Source: Prototheca cutis (lineage: Eukaryota; Chlorophyta; Trebouxiophyceae; Chlorellales; Chlorellaceae). Taken from it: DNA of 64,000 bases. Made by a program: the position numbers and the translations under genes. The stretch lies in assembly GCA_002897115.2 (NCBI GenBank), contig BCIH01000007.1:708227-772226 (forward strand), read 5' to 3'. The notes beneath the pieces are model-generated. The model was not told the origin of the DNA and did no database searches. It saw nothing but the letters and a program-made list of their open reading frames with translations. Positions 1,148 through 46,073 of this stretch are shown here, piece after piece (within the stretch, counting starts at the first letter, position 1; each line of letters begins with the position of its first letter).

Positions 1148-1168
1148 CCCCCCCCCCCCCCCCCCCCC
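1148..1168. repeat. 21-bp poly-C tract in a 3' flank
   Basis: An uninterrupted run of 21 C lies about 70 bp past the stop of the membrane-protein gene. The rest of the 341 bp between the two convergent stop codons (1076-1416) shows no gene. Both 3' UTRs must lie here. Confidence 0.8.
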
Positions 1169-1416
1169 ACCAATCAAAAAGAAACATTGTGCTTTTCCCG
1201 ACATGAGTGCTTTTGCCTTGACATGTCCTGTTGCTGAGCCACTGGCAATGTATTCGTGCCGACACAGCTTTTTGTTCGAACAGAAAGACGGAACTGGATC
1301 TGCCAAGCGCTCACTGTGGTGGTGGGGGTGTTCCAGACAGCATCTCCCAAGTAAAACCGGGGTTGGAGATGGAATGAATGAGCCTCGAGGCAGGTAGGAA
1401 GCTAGGCAGGTCCCGC

Positions 1417-4400
1417 TCAAGTCGACTCTGCTGCAGCGGCTGTGGCTGCAGCGGCTCTCGCGCGAACTGCCGTTTCCACCTGCGCCAGCAGCACTGTTCT
1501 TTCCTTTCGCCGCAGCCCGCTGCTGTCCGCCATGCACGCCGCCAGTGCCAGGACCTAGAAATTGGATCGATTGGTGGATTCAGTGATCGGTGGGAGGTCT
1601 GTCACCGTACATGTGTCTTTCGTGAGAGTCGAGCATCTGTTGCATCTTGCCACCCCAGGACACCTCCTCTTTTTCTCACCTGGTCGGCAGTGTACTCGGC
1701 ATGCGCAGCTGCCCAGGCGGCCAGCTCTCCTGCTGGGATGTAAAAGGCCTTGACGTACGCGTCTGCAGCCGTCAGGTCAGGTTCGGCCTGTCCCTCGAGC
1801 CAGGCCGGTGCGGCAGATTTCACTGCGGCACCGACGCCTCGGACGTCCAGGGTCAAAGCGGCGCGACCCTCCAGGCTACACGTCCGCACGCGAGCCAGGG
1901 CGTCGACCAGGGCCGGGGGCAGTGCGGCGGCCGCGGCTCGCCACGCGCGCCGCTGCGCACGCCGCGGCAGTCCCGCCCCCCGCGCCAGGCGGTCTGCGAA
2001 CACACCGAGTTGCCGTGCCAGTTGTGAAACCCAGGGTTGAGGGGCGGTGGGCGGTTCTTTCAACGCATACGTCGTCCCCGCCACCGCCTCTCCCAGCCAT
2101 CCCAGCGGCAGCAGCGCTGCCACGCCCCGAGCCGCCACATGCTCGGCCAGACCCTCGGCAGCAAGCGCGGCCGCCGCCAGCCATGCCTCGGCGCGGGGGG
2201 CACCGCCCGCGGGCGCCAGGAGCGCAGCCAGGGCGGGCCCTGCGGCCGCCAGGCGGCTGCCCAGTTCCGCTAGTGATGATGTCGCGACGTCGCGTTCAGA
2301 CATGCCGTACATGTTGCCGGACGCCACGATCGCCGCCCGTCTCGCCGCCGCGGGGTCGTCGCCGCCGCCGCCTCCAAAGAACCCCCCCACATGAACTGGG
2401 TGCGGTGGGGCTCCCAACGCCGGGGCGCTCGCGCTGCCGTGCATCGCTATGGCCGCTGCGCTGCTCATGGCAGTGGGACCACCGACACCTGTGGCACTCG
2501 CGCCGCTGGGCCCAGCAACCCCTCCCCCAGATCCCACCGCAGGGCCCAGGCCTCCTGATGGCAAGGACGGAGAACCTCCAGACCCCACCCCACTAGCCAG
2601 CCAGGGAAGCCCCGTGGAGTGATGGTGGTGGCTGTTCCCTGCCGCCTCGGTGGCCCCAGCAGCAGTTCCTGCGGCAGNGTCGGCCAGGGCCGATCTCAAC
2701 GCCGAACCGCTCCCTGTTGCCAGCGCCGGGTTGCAGCCGGGTCCATCGTGCAGGGCCCGGCGCAGCGCGGTTTCCAGGGCCGACACCGCCGGGCGCAGCT
2801 CGGGTCGTCCGGCCGCAGGCGAACCCAGCGCGCCGCCGGCCGCCACACGGGCAAGGCCGGCCGGGTCAAAGCAGGCCATGATGTGCAGGAGGTACAGGTC
2901 ATGCAGCTCCGTCATTCCCTGGAAGATTGCCGGTGCCGAAGCAGGCAGCATCCCCATGAGGCGAGCATAGTCCCGAAGCCACTTCATGGCTCGCCAGGAC
3001 GAATTTGTGACGCAGCGGTCGTCGCTAGGTGCGGACGCAGCTGCACCGTCTCTCCGCGGCTCCGTCCCTCTGCCGTCCTCATCGATAGATTCAGCGTGCA
3101 GTGCCGCGTCCTCGTCGTCCTCAGTTCCGGACTTTTCGGGCGTCGCGACACTTGATTCCAAAGCAGGCTCAGCATCAGCGCCATTTGCATCAGGGGCATT
3201 GGTATTGACGCGGGGCAAACCAGCTGCGTCCACATCCAGCCCCGAGTCCTCGGGACCCACGGCCCCGCCAAATCCCAGCGTGATGGCGGCGCCCACAGAC
3301 TGAGGTGCCCCTGGACTACTGAGTTGACCTGGCTGTGATGTGCCGAGCGCCCCGTTGCGCTGCCGGCGCCAGGGGTTGCCGGCGGCCACAAGGGCATCAA
3401 ATGCCGCATAGCTGTTCGCCGGTGACAGTCGCAGTGACTTTCCGTCAGTTGCGATGACAGCAGTTGCGAGTTCACTGCTCGCATCGTCTGCTGCAAGGCT
3501 GCTCGCTCCACGACCCCGTGATGCAGCAGCGCTGGCCGGTTGGGTCCCCCGCGGGGTCCCTGGCACCTGGGCCATGGCAGCAAGCTTGGGATCGCTCTTC
3601 CCCACGGGCACCAAAGCGGCGGTTGGGGCAAAGGCCAGGGGCGGCAGGCGCACGGGCAGGGCCACCCAGGCCTCCTTGTCCAGCATGGAGTTGAGCGCCT
3701 CCAGGTTGGCGGCATGATACCCGGCGAAAAAAGTTCCAGACTGGCGTGCCAGCGTGGCCCGCAGCGCCGCGCTTTCCACTCGCGAAAATGCTTCGCCCGC
3801 GGCCATGAACCGCCGCATCCAGTCCAGGACCTGGAGGAAATGCTCGCCCTCGGACGCCGCGGGCGAACTGAGCAGCGTCGACACCTGCCGCGCTGCCTCC
3901 TCCCACGCCATCGGCCGCCCCGACCGAAGCACGCCGCCTACTGCCGCCAACAGCGCCGCACGGACCTGAAGGCCCTGAACACTGTCGGGGTCCACCAGCG
4001 CCGGCACGGAGGCTTCTTCTGCATGGTCGCCGTTGTCTGTTACCTCGTCTGGTTCTTCGGATGTCATGGTGCTTTGGGTGCCATTTTCAGTGGCCCTAAT
4101 TGCTCCGCTGCGGTGTCGAGAGTCCACACTGCCGTCGTGGGAGCCGCCAGCAGAGGCCACACCACTTTGTGCGGCTCCCCCCCCAGCACATAATCCTTCC
4201 TCCCGCTCTGCGGCCTCCGCCCTTCCTATTCGGGCTTCGCAGGCGACCAGCTCTACTGCATGCCAGGCCTCCATGGCATGGGCGCTTGCCAGAACATCCC
4301 ACAGCACCGCCAGCAGCTGGGCCAGGCATGTCCGGAAGAGATCCGATGGCAGTGCCCGCACCAGTTCCTGCAAGAGGTTGGTTGGGCAGCGTGCTGTTGC

Positions 4401-16200: not shown

Positions 16201-17353
16201 CGATTTCGGCCTGTCCCGTGAGAAAAAGCAGGATATCCCCCGGCGGTTCAGTGGTGTGCAGGTCCAGTGCCACGTCCACTGCTGCAGCGAGGTAATCACC
16301 GGCGTGGTCGTCCAAAGAGTGGATGATTTCCACCGGAAAGGCGCGCCCAGGGACCTCGAACACGGGGCAGCCACCGTAATATTTGGCAAACTTGGCGCCG
16401 TCCAGTGTCGCCGATGTGATGACCAGTTTGAGTGGGGGGTCTTTCCGCGTGAAAGCAAGCTCCTTAAGCAGGGCAAAAAGGATGTCAGTGTTCAGTGACC
16501 GCTCATGTGCTTCATCCAGTACCAACACGCCATAATGCCGCAGCTCCGGGTCACGCAGCAGTTCCCGCAGCAGCGTGCCATCTGTTTGGGATGTGAGTGT
16601 GTGTGTGTGTGTGTGGGGGGGGGGGGGGGTGACCAGCAGTTTGCGGGTTTAGTGAGAGCTGGGCACTTGTGATCAAGCGGGTGGGTGGGTGTCACGCGGT
16701 CACCACCCAGCAGGTCGCTAGGGCACCACCTCCAACTGCCCACGGCCGCCGTACGCACCTGTCAGGTACTTGATCCTGGTCCTGCGGCCTGTGCACTCTT
16801 CAAACCGCACGGCATAGCCGACTTCCTCCCCGAGCTCTTCGCCTCGTTCTTGCGCCACCCGCCTAGCCACTGTCACCGCCGCCTGTGTGGTGTGTGTTTG
16901 GGATGCTAGGAGTGAGGGTGGGCATGAGGACTGGCAGGTGCACATTTTCTGACATGCGTCATGTTGAGCTTGCGTGGAAGTCTCTCCAAGCTTGCTTGGT
17001 TGACGAGGGCGGGCTGTGGCCCAGGGAACCTGCAAGGAATTTCATTCCACCTGATCTTCCAGAACCTGTCCAGACCATGACGCCCGGTGGAGAATCTATC
17101 CAACCAATTGCCCATGTCACCCAGAGCTCCTTACCACTCGCCGGGGCTGGGTGACGCCCACCATGCGTTCACCGGCCAGACCGGCATCGAGCAAGATTTG
17201 GCTGATCTGCGTGGTCTTGCCCGATCCGGTCTCGCCGATGACCACGACCACGGGATTGTCGCGCACGGCGCGAGCAATGTCATCCGCATACTGTCGGATT
17301 GGTAGATCCGATGGCTCCATGCCCGCGGTTGGCGACTCAGTGGCACCGCCCAA
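13295..17353 (-). CDS. DEAH-box RNA helicase, short plant At1g27900-like type
   Basis: Ten exons (17320-17135, 16882-16759, 16581-16094, 15903-15725, 15550-15448, 15260-15153, 14911-14839, 14699-14130, 13907-13828, 13657-13295) join to 757 residues from ATG 17320; an in-frame ATG at 17353 adds 11. Helicase motifs appear in order: [10 protein letters not shown] (Walker A), VLDEAHERS (DEAH), [22 protein letters not shown] and QRAGRAGRT. The HA2 and OB-fold regions follow ([39 protein letters not shown]), ending in [14 protein letters not shown]. The protein starts almost directly at the helicase core, with no S1, G-patch or long N-terminal domain, unlike Prp22, Prp2 or Prp16. From memory it is closest to the short plant DEAH protein At1g27900. 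RNA remodelling is the family role; the exact RNA target is unknown. Confidence 0.88.
16592..16632. repeat. (TG)n plus poly-G tract in helicase intron
   Basis: A TG run followed by a G run lies directly upstream, in minus-strand terms, of the acceptor of the exon starting at 16581. On the coding strand it reads C-run then CA-run. Confidence 0.85.
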
Positions 17354-18590
17354 TCCTCATGCCGGCGCCAGTGCACCACTCAACGACATTCGCAAGAGTG
17401 CTGGCCTGGGAAGCCGTGCCGACAAGAGTCACATTTCCATTCTACAATGCATCGCATTTACCATGAAGCAGAGACCATGTATGGGGTGGAGCATGACCTT
17501 TGTCTGCTTGATTGCATGTCAGGCTTTTGTCTCGAAACCCAGATCAGATTAATGTCAGGGTGCCACATTCTTGACAAATGGTCTTAGGGGCTTTCCTACG
17601 CCCACCAACCTCGCCTGCTGCACGGTAATTTTTATCCCAAAGCACTGACGCAGTCTGCGGGGGGTACCCCTCGGAAGGAGGTGGGCGTGCCTGCACGCAG
17701 TCAGTCCTCGTCCAAAGCAACCCCGGAGCACCGTATCCAAGGTCGGACACTTTGAACAGCGTAGATGTGCCTTTGCAACGCCTTTTTCCTCCAGAATTAT
17801 TTGTATTAGAAACATTTAGGAGATCAGGAATGGGAAAGAGCACCTGGTATTCGCGACTGAAGTTGTTTCAAGAGCACCCCTTACATACCCTTGAGCATGA
17901 CTGTTGAAAGGTGACTTGCAGGAGCCGGGCTCTGTCTTGTTTGGAGCCTTCTGTACAATTCCCGCTCTGGGATATTCCTCGTGGTTTCACTCTGCATGAT
18001 TATTACATTGGTGTATTGACAATCCAAATCAGGGCACATTTGATCAGGGAGTTGTAGACAGTTCAGCCTGGGAGGTGAACTTTCACTGCCAGGAGCATCG
18101 AGGGAGTAAGCGGCACCCCTGAGATTTTGCCCGGATTGTTGCGCTCTTCTTGGGGTTGACATCCAGGCAAGGCTTGTGCATTGTCGACGACCTGGTGCTG
18201 ATATCGCTGTGGGATCACCTGAGATAGTGCCATTACTGCTCCAGGTGAGCCGCCAACGCAGCGCAGACTATCTGGCAGAGTTCAGATGCCATTGCCTTGA
18301 AAGTCGACAGAACTGCATGCATGCTTGCCACGGTACGACAGACCCCCCAGCGTGGGTCCAGGCCAAGCCATCAGCAATGAATGCTGTTAGCCAGATGGCC
18401 GTGGCATGCATGTGCGCAGGGCGACAAGGAAAGCACCGTCGGCCGGTGGCCCCAGGTGACATCTCAGTCGCTGCTGTGCCGCCTCCCTTATGTGATGGTG
18501 GCGCTTGTGCGGGTGCAGGGTGAGCACACACATGCACATGCGCGCGCAGCCATGCACGGACGGTTTCCACGGGCTGTGGGTCACGCCTAC
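17354..18590. other. Non-coding or unresolved stretch with lower GC
   Basis: This covers the 5' flank of the DEAH helicase and the lead-in to the zinc-ribbon remnant. No exon is supported. Short open frames on both strands are not conserved-looking. Around 18170-18250 there is an exon-like end (…CTGCTCCAG|GTGAGC), which might belong to a decayed 5' part of the downstream remnant, but I cannot show it. Confidence 0.35.
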
Positions 18591-18599
18591 GCCAAGTGC

Positions 18600-19037
18600 G
18601 CCACACCGCAGGTTTGCTCGGNGTGCAATAAACCCTTGCGCCTGGGCGACTGCCCCACCTCCAAGAACAAGCGCTTTGTCCGGCAGTGTCAGAACGAGGC
18701 CTGCGGCGTCGTGCACAACCGCGACCAGAACGCGGCGCAGAACATGTGCTATGTGACGATGGGCCTGATCTTCAACGGCGTCCGGCCAGAGCTTTTTGAC
18801 AAGCGGCTCCCCCCCTGGCGCATGCCTGAGTTCTGCCTGAACACTTTCCCACCAACTTGTCCAGCCACTGATTTCTGCTGGTCCCAAAGGAGGCTTTCCC
18901 TCTCTCTTGATGCTTGGACAGGCATCAATAACCCCCACTGGCACGCACGTTCGTTGCTGAGAAGGGGGTTGCTCCAGGGCGCCGTCAATGTTGTGTTTCT
19001 TGCTTGCATGTTGTCTTGTGTTTGGCCTGCACGATGA
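18600..19037 (+). pseudogene. TnpB/Fanzor-like C-terminal zinc ribbon with RuvC-III motif (remnant)
   Basis: One frame reads QVCS-x-CNKPLRL, about 20 residues of basic linker, RQCQNEACGVV, then HNRDQNAAQNM, and GLIFNGVRPELFDKRLPP. Two Cys pairs followed by N-R-D-x-N-A-A-x-N is the signature of the C-terminal zinc ribbon and third RuvC catalytic Asp of TnpB and its eukaryotic relatives, the Fanzor proteins. The conserved block runs from about 18613 to 18815. Downstream the frame becomes low-quality and stops at 19035. No RuvC-I or RuvC-II region was found upstream on either strand, so I call it a remnant; a multi-intron intact gene cannot be excluded. One N (18622) lies inside the first Cys pair. 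GC content matches native exons. Confidence 0.5.
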
Positions 19038-19706
19038 ATGGTCAAAAAAATTGGCGCGCGCCATTGATGTCGTCCCCCCATCTCCACCCTCAGTTGCACG
19101 CACCATTCACAACTAAACACAATTTTCTTGTCTGTACAGCAACTCGCAAGTGACAAAACGGGGATACTACCAGGAAGGACCGGCCAAAGAAACACTCTCA
19201 AACATAGGGCAGCAGGTGCATCTGGAAAGAAAGGAAGCACGCTGTGTTGAGGTGCAAACGGCACTGCTCGCTCGGCGATAAGGAGCACGATGCGGCGGCA
19301 AAATAAATCTTATAGGAAAATGTAAAGTCCGTGGCCCCGCACTGGCGGAAGGTGCCACCTGGAAATGAGGGTTGAAACAAACAAGCAAGAAAACAGGGGC
19401 CTGTGGATGCAGACAGTGCACCGAACCAGGCCAACAGTGCGTTCTGGGGTGGGGCACCTTTCGTTCTGTGGAATCACACGACAAAGGGGGCAGTGGCACA
19501 TGGCCGTGCAAATGGGGGTCTCAACTCTTCTGGAAGATTCGTCTGCACTACATCTGGAGATACTGCAGCATTAGATTGGCAAGTGCTCCTTCTTCTAGGA
19601 GTTCACGGTTCTACATGTGGTTGGCCGGTCCATTTGAGGCTCAGCATGGGAGCCTTATCAAGGTGATGGCTTGAACATCACCCTGTCCTCTCCCTACAGC
19701 AAGTGC
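19038..19706. other. Convergent 3' region before AOX
   Basis: No gene is supported in these 669 bp. The stretch probably holds the AOX 3' UTR. It has moderate GC and scattered short open frames only. Confidence 0.4.
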
Positions 19707-43343: not shown

Positions 43344-44345
43344 TGCCAATGGCCTGCTTGTAAACTGCAGGGACACGATGTAGAGGGTGAACGGCATTGG
43401 CCATCAGTACATGCACTATCTGCTTCAATCCCGTTCGTTCTAGTCACATCCATGTCTGAAGCCCAGCTTGACGACGAGTCCCGACACCGACAGCAAGAAG
43501 TGGATGCAGGCACCCACAACAGTGTCCACGCAAACCATCGGCAACTCGCTCCTCACCAGGTTGCGTGGAAATCCTCGAAACATAGACGAGCAAGGCGGCC
43601 CTGGGGATAACGCTTTGGGTAGTGCCCTGGAAGTGTTCGGATTCACAAGCCGCAGTCCCGAAACAGAGACGGCCTTGCTCCTGGCAGCGTTGAGGCTGCC
43701 ACTGACAACCACCCTGGTCGCGATGACCATGCTTTATAGAGTATAGATGAACTCTCTCTTCTGGATGGCTTTCCTAGAACAACGCGGTTGGAAGCTGGAT
43801 GAGCCAACTGATGACGATCTGGGTCCCCGCACGACTTGTGCGGGGCATTCAACGATTCCCGAAAGTCCCTCCCAGGCCCTCCGGTGCACCACCCGTGCAG
43901 CACCCCCTTGTATGACCGCACGAGTATGTTTATTCCGCACCAAAAATCCAGTCTCAGAACAGGGCGGGGCCAGAAATGAGCGCACTCGTGGGCAATCACC
44001 CTTCGACGGTCGGGGGCGGCGCAGCTGCGGGGGCTGGGACCACCAAACCGTGCGTGCAGGCCCTCGCAACGCCTGTTACCCCAGAAATCAAGATAATGAG
44101 AGGATTGAGGGTGCAAATGGGAGTTGCGATTATGTCGGTTTCTCGCTCGGCGGCCCTTGACATTCTTCAAACGCGCCGCCAGCAAGCGCCCTTAGGGTTC
44201 ATGCAGTGGTTGGGCCCCAGAGCAGGTGCTGTTTGGGTTGATTTCAGAAGAAAATCTTGTCTTATACATCCATATCATGATTCAATTGCCCATTGTTTTG
44301 TCGAATCAAGGGGAGTACTGTGCAGACAAAGACAGGTCAACCTAT
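43344..44345. other. Unresolved stretch upstream of MsrA
   Basis: Open frames exist on both strands (for example a 92-codon frame at 43468-43746 plus, and a 180-codon frame at 43643-44185 minus), but none shows a recognisable domain. Low-GC sequence at 44225-44320 looks non-coding. I leave this without a gene call. Confidence 0.3.
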
Positions 44346-44720
44346 CTACGGATCAGATTCAAGTTCAGCAACGGGCAATGTCGTGGCCACCGTTTTCTGG
44401 GCCTCTGCACCTGCATCTGGCCTCGCTGTGGTCCTCCGCTTGTACTTCTGGCAGCTGCGGTCCCGCCACCCGATCTTCTGCTTCTTGGATCCAGAGCCTG
44501 AGTTGAGAGGCATNTNAGCCCAGAGCCCTTTTTGTAGCTCTGCCGCGTGTTTGTCGATGTACTCCGGGGAGCGGGTGCTCAGCACGTCGCGAGTGAATCT
44601 AAGAAGGTCATCCTTCGCTGCATGTGGGTTCTTTAGCATGTGGTACTGCACCGTGCCGTTGATGACAAAGTCTTTCAGGGGTGGCGAGGGACCAGGGTTC
44701 AGGTCCAGCATCATTCCCAC
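44346..44720 (-). CDS. Hypothetical protein exon, Lys/Arg-rich end
   Basis: The frame contains a well-formed stretch (PLKDFVINGTVQYHMLKNP, AAKDDLLRFTRDVLSTRSPE, YIDKHAAELQKGLW) and then a basic end (SKKQKIGWRDRSCQKYKRRT), stopping at 44346. Composition is more protein-like than the antisense frame, and no other gene covers it. Two N (44514, 44516) interrupt it. I recognise no family. It might be the 3' exon of a gene whose 5' part lies between 44720 and 45000, or part of a mobile element, since a TnpB-like remnant lies 600 bp away on the other strand. Confidence 0.3.
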   Translation of the reverse strand: MGMMLDLNPGPSPPLKDFVINGTVQYHMLKNPHAAKDDLLRFTRDVLSTRSPEYIDKHAAELQKGLWAXMPLNSGSGSKKQKIGWRDRSCQKYKRRTTARPDAGAEAQKTVATTLPVAELESDP

Positions 44721-45229
44721 GTTGGGGTGCCGCGCTCGGGGTCAGCGAGACCAGCTGGCTGTCCACAGCAGCCTGCTGGGATCTGGCACCTTGGATATCT
44801 CGTGGGGAATCCTGTTCGGCATGGCGGGGGTTGGGCCGGCGCTGCCGGCGGCTGACCCGACAGCCATCGGCTTGCTGGTTCGGATCGTGCCAGTCATCCA
44901 TGTGCTGGGCTTTATCGTCGGGCTGAGAAGCTGTAGTGGCTGGTACCGGTTGATGTCCATAGTCAAAAAACGCCTTCTAATCCTCCTGCATTGAAGCCGG
45001 ACCACGGGAATGGACAGTGCAGCCACTGCATCTGTCTGGTCGATGCGCCAGCTGTTGCAGGGCCGGGGACAGCTCCCTGACCGACATCGTGCCGTCCCCA
45101 CACGACGCATTGCTGCCGCATGAGCACGACCTTGAAGGGCTGCACCGGCGGCTGTCCTGGGACATGCATGCCAGGGGCGGCGTTGAGGTGGCCGAGCACG
45201 CGCAAGAGGCACGCCTTCACAATGCGGCG

Positions 45230-45634
45230 GGGGNCGGAAGAGAAGACACCCACNCAGGGGGNACGCCGGCATCAAGCGCAACAGGTGCTCCAGGCCGGGA
45301 CGAGGCCGGTGGACGTGATGCCCCGCGGTTGACAGTGGGCCCCATCCAGTGGCAGCACTGCACACAATCCAAACAGCAGCACCGCCCGGAACAAGTGCGC
45401 CATCCTCGAATGCCAGAGATGTGGCGTGGTGTGGAACTGCGACGTCAACATGGCATGGAACATCTGCCACCTGGGGGAGAGACTGGTCCTGACCGACAAA
45501 AGGCCGCCGCCTTTTGATCGCAAACCCAAGCTCCTCCCCCTTGCACATCCCCTGCCTCCCAGGCGCTCCACCTGGTATGATTTCATCACCAAGATACTCC
45601 GCTGGCCCTGGTCTGCGGAACAGTACCATTGAGC
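45230..45634 (+). pseudogene. Second TnpB/Fanzor-like zinc-ribbon remnant
   Basis: One frame reads RNKCAILECQRCGVVWNCD then VNMAWNI, followed by about 50 residues including TDKRPPPFDRKPK, to a stop at 45632. It aligns by eye with the remnant at 18.6 kb: C-x2-C-G-V-V-(H/W)-N-x-D-x-N-x-A-x-N-(M/I), with a R-P-x-x-F motif after it. The catalytic-type Asp is kept, but the usual Arg is Cys and one Ala is Met. The upstream Cys pair is not found in frame; a stop codon (45329-45331) and N at 45234, 45254 and 45262 interrupt the region. This looks like a more decayed copy. It could also be a last exon of an intron-containing gene. Confidence 0.42.
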
Positions 45635-46073
45635 GCGTGCTGTGAGGCCAGTTTTTCTGGATTACCCTCGGGGACCTCGTGGGGTGCGGGGCCCAGGGTG
45701 TCTGGGATCGTACCCTACCCCGCCAAGTCAATCAATTTTGCCGGGTGCATCCTGCGCCCTCTGTTCTTGCTGTCCTTGACTTTTCAGATGGTCCATGGGC
45801 CAGTTTAGGAGCAGACCAATGCAGTTTCCGCATCCTGCAGCTCGGGAAGCCAGCGCATGGGAACGGGCACACACACGCAGCGTCAGCGCGAATCCGGCCA
45901 GGAGACATTGCGCCGATGGAATCCCACTTGCACAAACATTTTCANACACACATACACATAGATGCGATGGAGAGGGATGACGTATCTTGCCACAGCTGTC
46001 CAGATGGGTACAGCAGCCCTCACTGTTCCTACCGGCTCGCCGGTTCATGTAGAGACCACCACACCTTCCAGAC
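45635..46073. other. Convergent 3' region before subtilase
   Basis: No gene is supported in 439 bp. It probably holds the subtilase 3' UTR. One N lies at 45945. Confidence 0.4.

Follow-up and report, generated by a model that had tools for sequence, protein, structure and literature searches.

Introduction

Fanzors are RNA-guided DNA-cutting enzymes that correspond, in eukaryotes, to TnpB and Cas12. The motif order published for Fanzor1 runs from an aspartate (D) through [TS][TS]-XX-C4 to RD (Bao and Jurka 2013, PMC3627910), and a TDG motif has been called characteristic of Fanzor1 (PMC10711439). In Spizellomyces punctatus, 134 ghost Spu-1 loci are reported beside 42 loci with full-length or partial Fanzor genes (PMC10432273), and in Auxenochlorella UTEX 250-A the most abundant repeat is given as an uncharacterised Fanzor-encoding element, with homologous recombination described as efficient in both Auxenochlorella and Prototheca (PMC12633428). 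As far as these accounts go, a Fanzor as the commonest Auxenochlorella repeat and Fanzor-less ghost elements in a chytrid are already published.

Here we analysed a 64,000-nt stretch of Prototheca cutis DNA (contig BCIH01000007.1; hereafter the window), in which a first-pass annotation had placed the catalytic C-terminal ribbon of a TnpB/Fanzor-type protein at 18600-19037. The comparisons below make it very probable that this block represents the final exon of a Fanzor1 gene, riding as a passenger in a short, non-autonomous DNA transposon, and that the window copy makes no working Fanzor.

Identity and borders of the ribbon block

The ribbon lies in a plus-strand frame, 18381-19037, that runs for 218 codons without a stop and contains VCSxC (x because base 18622 is an N), CQNEACGVVHNRDQNAAQNM and NGVRPELF; the Cys pairs, the NRD block, the RPELF motif and the long open frame are thus all present as first described. 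Within the exon, which has a GC3 of 0.86, four ribbon cysteines are followed by RD (VCSxC...CQNEACG...NRD). The profile search proposed with the annotation gave a split result: PF07282, named Cas12f1-like_TNB in Pfam and OrfB_Zn_ribbon in PMC3627910, scored 26.5 bits on 18570-18869, just over the cut-off of 26.3, yet 25.9 on the whole 218-residue frame, which is borderline when taken alone. Because this score is only at the cut-off, the case for Fanzor identity rests on relatives, and here the support goes beyond chance: the ribbon recurs at 39 places, a spliced Fanzor1-like gene in the same genome has a matching last exon, and Fanzor1-like proteins have the same motif order.

The closest relative found is the last exon of that spliced gene, L055, which matches the window with 81.6% DNA identity over 294 aligned columns, intron tail included. 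The homology spans 18540-18829 and comprises 72 bp of intron tail, an acceptor (cag/GTTTGC) at 18611/18612 and the exon; the intron remnant aligned to the L055 intron with an SW score of 37, against a shuffled maximum of 35 (0 of 200 shuffles as high). By this kinship and by motif order, 18612-18829 is the predicted last exon, with RuvC-III and a C4 zinc ribbon, of a Fanzor1-type protein, which bears out the proposed superfamily and narrows it to the Fanzor1 branch. The borders first drawn need revision: the ribbon does lie inside 18600-19037, but the rest of that interval up to 19037 is element DNA. No other gene explains the block, as had been stated, the neighbours being an alternative oxidase gene (AOX, PF01786) and a helicase gene (PF00271, likely ATG at 17320), both on the minus strand.

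Table 1. Fanzor-derived features of the window, with the basis of each assignment.
Feature	Position	Strand	Basis
Left target-site duplication, ATTAATGTC	17548..17556	.	One mismatch to the right duplication, ATTGATGTC
Whole family A element, 1505 bp, non-autonomous, intergenic	17558..19062	+	36 other copies align over at least 1.4 kb; flanks differ
Left end, GGGTGCCACATTCTTGACAAATGGTC	17558..17583	+	Imperfect inverted repeat of the right end (by eye)
5' block common to L057 and L058 (C-type exon) and L059 (exon lost)	17569..18408	+	82-88% DNA
Putative 3' remnant of the last Fanzor intron, including its acceptor AG	18540..18611	+	Similarity to the L055 intron
Predicted last Fanzor1 exon: C4 zinc ribbon and RuvC-III (VCSxC...CQNEACGVVHNRD...NGVRPELFDK)	18612..18829	+	PF07282; L055 DNA match
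Predicted RuvC-III aspartate codon (NRD)	18723..18725	+	Aligned to NRD of Fanzor1-like proteins
3' part, frame open to 19037, ends in 7-bp hairpin TTTGGCC...GGTCAAA	18830..19062	+	
Right end, GAATGGTCAAAAAAATTGGCGCGCGCC	19036..19062	+	Copy alignment
Right target-site duplication, ATTGATGTC	19063..19071	.	9-mer repeat test across copies
Family B' element, second Fanzor-derived element in the window	43858..45720	+	Right end aligned to B

Whole Fanzor1-like genes in the genome

The same genome carries what look like whole Fanzor genes. Family B and the loci L031, L056 and L055 encode Fanzor1-like proteins in which the complete catalytic set, D, E and D, appears in order. With the RuvC-I/II part of family B as query, 35 matches were found; 11 of them, two at a single locus, span at least 150 of 187 residues. 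Frames of B copies reached PF07282 at up to 1.4e-12. The L055 gene (L055:1717-4935, contig C12), a single gene, aligns with B at 44% over 619 residues and carries GMDPGRK, VNEYNTSQ, a GT-AG intron across which the frame reads ...VNEYNTSQ/VCSACN..., LNRDKNAARN and a stop after LPPLTRA; its frames read without a stop (the stretch 2836-3204 between frames being left out), and a tRNA-Phe gene starts 209 bp after it. L055 is possibly a live or domesticated Fanzor.

Both B and L055 fit the ordered Fanzor1 set, with GIDPGRK/GMDPGRK, VDEFRTSQ/VNEYNTSQ, NRD and TTDGV/KTDGV, and a metagenomic protein, P0001, matched B at E 7e-7 with aligned DPGR, DEFRTS, four cysteines, NRD and NGER. A mixed profile (A4, four metagenomic and three own-genome rows) matched Fanzor1 structures at 1.5e-52, 3.2e-52 and 4.6e-42, the next match being a TnpB-like protein at 1.8e-8. 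The own-genome profile alone (A5) gave 0.53 for Fanzor1 and 0.1 for the TnpB-like protein, and thus no significant Fanzor in the PDB; hhalign aligned the own-genome profile with P0001-type proteins at 99.7% probability over 373 columns. Since the own-genome frames alone reach no PDB Fanzor, the Fanzor1 assignment runs via the P0001-type intermediates, through which B and L055 appear closer to the solved Fanzor1 than to Fanzor2 or TnpB.

The RuvC part of these genes had dN/dS values of 0.35 within B (four copies) and 0.42-0.76 between lineages, and the N-terminal part 0.59 within B and 0.79-1.13 between lineages, the latter indicating no constraint. The 5' region of B was considered as a possible transposase gene, but Pfam searches of B in six frames and of L055 in two gave no match over cut-off, and a low-powered dN/dS scan gave no clear coding signal there, with one window (1160-1400) at 0.13-0.21 in two frames. 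Structure prediction for P0003 from a 7-row alignment reached a mean pLDDT of 46.6, and nine pattern matches in viral contigs were not confirmed.

A dispersed family of short elements

We searched the 19.9-Mb genome (23 contigs) with the 100-residue block; 150 of 166 candidates were scored, and 150 matches were reported at E <= 10. Among the matches listed, the block recurs, by row count, at no fewer than 39 places including the window, at 71-100% protein identity; the L055 gene (71%) and a piece of 45 residues (73%) come in addition to these. Thirty-seven of the 39 places, the window included, align over at least 1.4 kb (L020 and L048 are shorter), and the 36 other copies are 79-88% identical in DNA to the window element and share its layout, except that the L017 copy is without its first ~100 bp. 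These 37 copies form the alignment used below, from which L020 and L048 (short) and L054 (the L055 gene itself) were excluded; the matches C6:424133, C5:270405 and C3:1099577 were left out of the copy set. We call this family A.

The borders of the element are marked by its ends and flanks. A 9-mer is repeated across the element with at most one mismatch in 18 of the 37 copies (exactly in 11), where shuffled flank pairs would give 0.52 of 37, and 27 of 37 copies have TG among the first 4 nt of their right flank, compared with a mean of 6.9 and a maximum of 15 in background windows. Read inward, the right end is GGCGCGCGCCAATTTTTTTGACCATTC, compared by eye with the left end. Single N bases within repeat copies (window position 18622; L010, L011 and others) suggest either heterozygosity or repeats left incompletely polished in the assembly. 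At L011:5601-6351, an inverted and more diverged (72%) second piece of the family A 5' part lies beside a full copy.

Fanzor coding was found in the window element only within 18540-18829, outside which no other part of the L055 gene matches. The region 17558-18540 has no homology to L055, L031, L056 or B beyond shuffles, and 18830-19062 showed no Fanzor similarity, its scores against L055, L031, L056 and the 3' parts of B and C staying within shuffles (the best, against L056, was reached by 9 of 200). The RuvC-I aspartate, the RuvC-II glutamate and the WED-domain TDG motif of Fanzor1 were not found in the window element. Across all 37 copies, tblastn with the B protein and P0001 gave 53 hits, of which only one, in L039 at E 0.5, ended before residue 480. 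A TSQ in the frame at 18381-18480 was considered as a RuvC-II motif and rejected, since 18300-18540 scored against L055 within shuffles (25 of 200 as high).

Linkage between variants in the 37 copies drops with distance, from an r2 of 0.083 at 10-50 bp to 0.031 at 401-800 bp; none of 500 site-order permutations gave as high a decay, and two clonal simulations were flat. A four-gamete count was uninformative, being high in the clonal simulations also. Copies at different insertion sites thus look mosaic, which could reflect exchange among dispersed copies, by gene conversion or template switching, or chimeras made in the assembly.

Origin of the element

Mutator-like and other elements make 8-9 bp duplications, and family A likewise has 9-bp duplications and G-rich inverted ends (imperfect, compared by eye). 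Two transposases were sought in the genome, with introns ignored: the MULE type (PF10551) gave 0 matches, in a search that was positive in 4 of 14 control genomes, and no IS1595-type domain (PF12762) was found. Family A, 1.5 kb long, with imperfect inverted ends and 9-bp duplications that have TG near their start, most likely derives by internal deletion or recombination from a longer element bearing a Fanzor gene that would have ended ~230 bp before the right end; it would have spread with enzyme supplied from elsewhere.

A precedent for such deletion comes from the same genome. The window B' element joins B's non-coding 5' part to the final ~340 bp of B; its last exon is without the first ~17 codons and the first Cys pair, and NRD is NCD. 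B' elements are deletion derivatives of B. About 90 weak ribbon matches, among the matches listed, were considered as many more families; the four that were fetched were all B' derivatives. A further group carries the last exon of another Fanzor (C-type), found at 13 places with at least 79% identity. Of four such loci read, L057 and L058 share the 5' 850 bp of A (83%), L060 shares ~330 bp with A and L034 none, while L059 joins A's 850 bp (88%) to C's middle and has lost the exon. Read off the coordinates, the distance between ribbon and right end is ~200-240 bp in A, B and C alike. The genome yielded no full-length element bearing both ends of family A, so the deletion origin of A is one that we infer.

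As to origin alone, a pre-existing inverted-repeat element may have captured the last exon of an L055-like gene, which would account for L055 homology that ends inside the intron and at the stop codon; we regard this as the less probable route, though one with a real share. C-type elements hold the last exon of another Fanzor similarly far from the right end, and two independent captures at one place are a less simple account, which counts against capture, as do the plain deletion derivatives seen in B'.

Guide RNA at the right end

A different reading would give the short elements a function of their own: as ghost elements, their retained 3' part would encode a guide RNA that reads into the flank and acts in trans with a Fanzor from elsewhere, a role proposed for the Spu-1 ghost loci (PMC10432273). 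The genome does contain Fanzor1-like genes with full catalytic sets, and several short families retain a Fanzor 3' end. Moreover, the right end of B (L026:5180-5289, L028:5174-5284) folds into about three stems far beyond shuffles in both copies analysed (z -4.15 and -3.36) and is conserved in the window's B', which makes it a candidate omega-RNA; the B right-end alignment is 92% identical, too little variation for covariation.

Family A gave a different picture. Its right end showed no fold excess over shuffles in six of six copies (z -1.33 to 1.49), the lowest mean z in 110-nt windows along six copies was only -2.0, and the right end had no similarity to L055, L031, L056 or B beyond shuffles. 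Rfam returned no match above gathering score and three weak ones below it. The terminal hairpin of A is paired in 92.9% of cells over 37 copies, but with two pairs changed on both sides its covariation was reached by 7 of 500 shuffles, a weak signal, and alignment folding gave both-side changes in 6 of 50 and 1 of 67 pairs. The omega-RNA that the first-pass annotation had suggested looking for next to the 3' end thus found no support in the folding of this element, and a guide-RNA role for family A is unlikely. Because the right end of B folds and is kept in B', and that of A does not fold, we file B' as ghost-like and A as passenger-carrying.

A broader version would join A, B' and C in one guide-RNA economy, in which short elements keep the 3' ends of different Fanzor lineages, modules are exchanged by recombination among dispersed copies, and the elements are maintained by a few whole Fanzor1 genes that cut empty sites with element-end RNAs. 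This whole scheme, which would sit in a lineage whose relatives reportedly recombine DNA very efficiently, we hold to be doubtful.

Protein-level constraint on the exon

The gene from which the exon derives was under constraint, but among the A copies the exon shows none at the protein level. Comparison of L055 with the A copies gave a dN/dS of 0.37, and the exon was thus once constrained. Among the 37 copies it is 0.67, against 0.66-0.80 in the five other frames and 0.48-1.17 in 12 control frames (four other windows). When the 92 distinct changes were placed randomly by base context, the observed-over-expected ratio of nonsynonymous to synonymous changes was 0.96, with 29 synonymous changes seen for 28.2 expected and 2 stops for 2.0. 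Substitutions among the copies therefore fit no selection at the protein level, and the ribbon is most likely a passenger.

The core of the exon, 18612-18803, is nearly indel-free in the 37 copies though its substitutions look neutral: in these 192 bp a single distinct indel goes with 92 substitutions, whereas elsewhere there are 137 for 1049 (Fisher p 0.0004), and two other 96-bp windows are almost as poor in indels (1 per 54 and 2 per 55). The 64-codon core is open in 28 of 37 copies, with stops in eight and a frameshift in one, and RD is kept in 33 of 36 in-frame copies (NRN in L014 and L047, NGD in L052). The low indel rate and the open cores could hint at frame-keeping.

These features, together with the retained acceptor AG and open frame, are what would be expected of the last exon of an expressed, spliced Fanzor, or of a ribbon-only protein, at the window locus. 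However, no RuvC-I/II coding was found upstream in the element, the substitution pattern is neutral and 8 of 37 copies have stops in the core, so that we consider an expressed exon very improbable; the suggestion of a live gene's last exon fails on the same points. Its alternative, recent decay in place, fares no better, as the other copies share the layout, the upstream kilobase holds no detectable RuvC-I/II coding and substitutions are neutral. An unrelated zinc-finger protein or a chance frame, to which the borderline Pfam score alone might lend colour, is refuted by kinship to L055 and, via L055, to Fanzor1-like proteins, and we give it practically no weight.

Comparison with known systems

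In this small genome D, E and D are retained by no fewer than four Fanzor1-like lineages (B, L055, L031 and L056), and shortened derivatives probably number more than 100; together with the candidate omega-RNA at B's right end, this offers a tractable test of whether Fanzors keep elements in the genome in trans. Gene targeting is reported as efficient in Auxenochlorella (PMC12633428), so knock-outs should be feasible there. The most abundant repeat reported for that alga is likewise a Fanzor-bearing dominant repeat in a small genome.

Relative to Fanzor1 as described in PMC3627910 and for SpuFz1 in PMC10432273, the window exon likewise has the C4 ribbon followed by RD, and genes B and L055 fit the published motif order and have the TDG motif (PMC3627910, PMC10711439), whereas the window element holds the last exon only. 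Like the ghost Spu-1 loci reported in PMC10432273, family A consists of many short elements with inverted ends and no Fanzor gene, beside fewer Fanzor loci. In the ghosts, however, an RNA-coding right end is described as common to ghosts and Fanzor loci, and family A shares none that was found, whereas B' shares the right end of B. Ribbon-retaining Fanzor elements in algae were not found described in the titles or abstract openings listed. Unlike the ghost Spu-1 loci as described, family A keeps the last exon, and its 5' block is common to elements with a different Fanzor exon; such exon-retaining, module-swapping Fanzor elements are, as far as these accounts go, a new form of a known kind of element.
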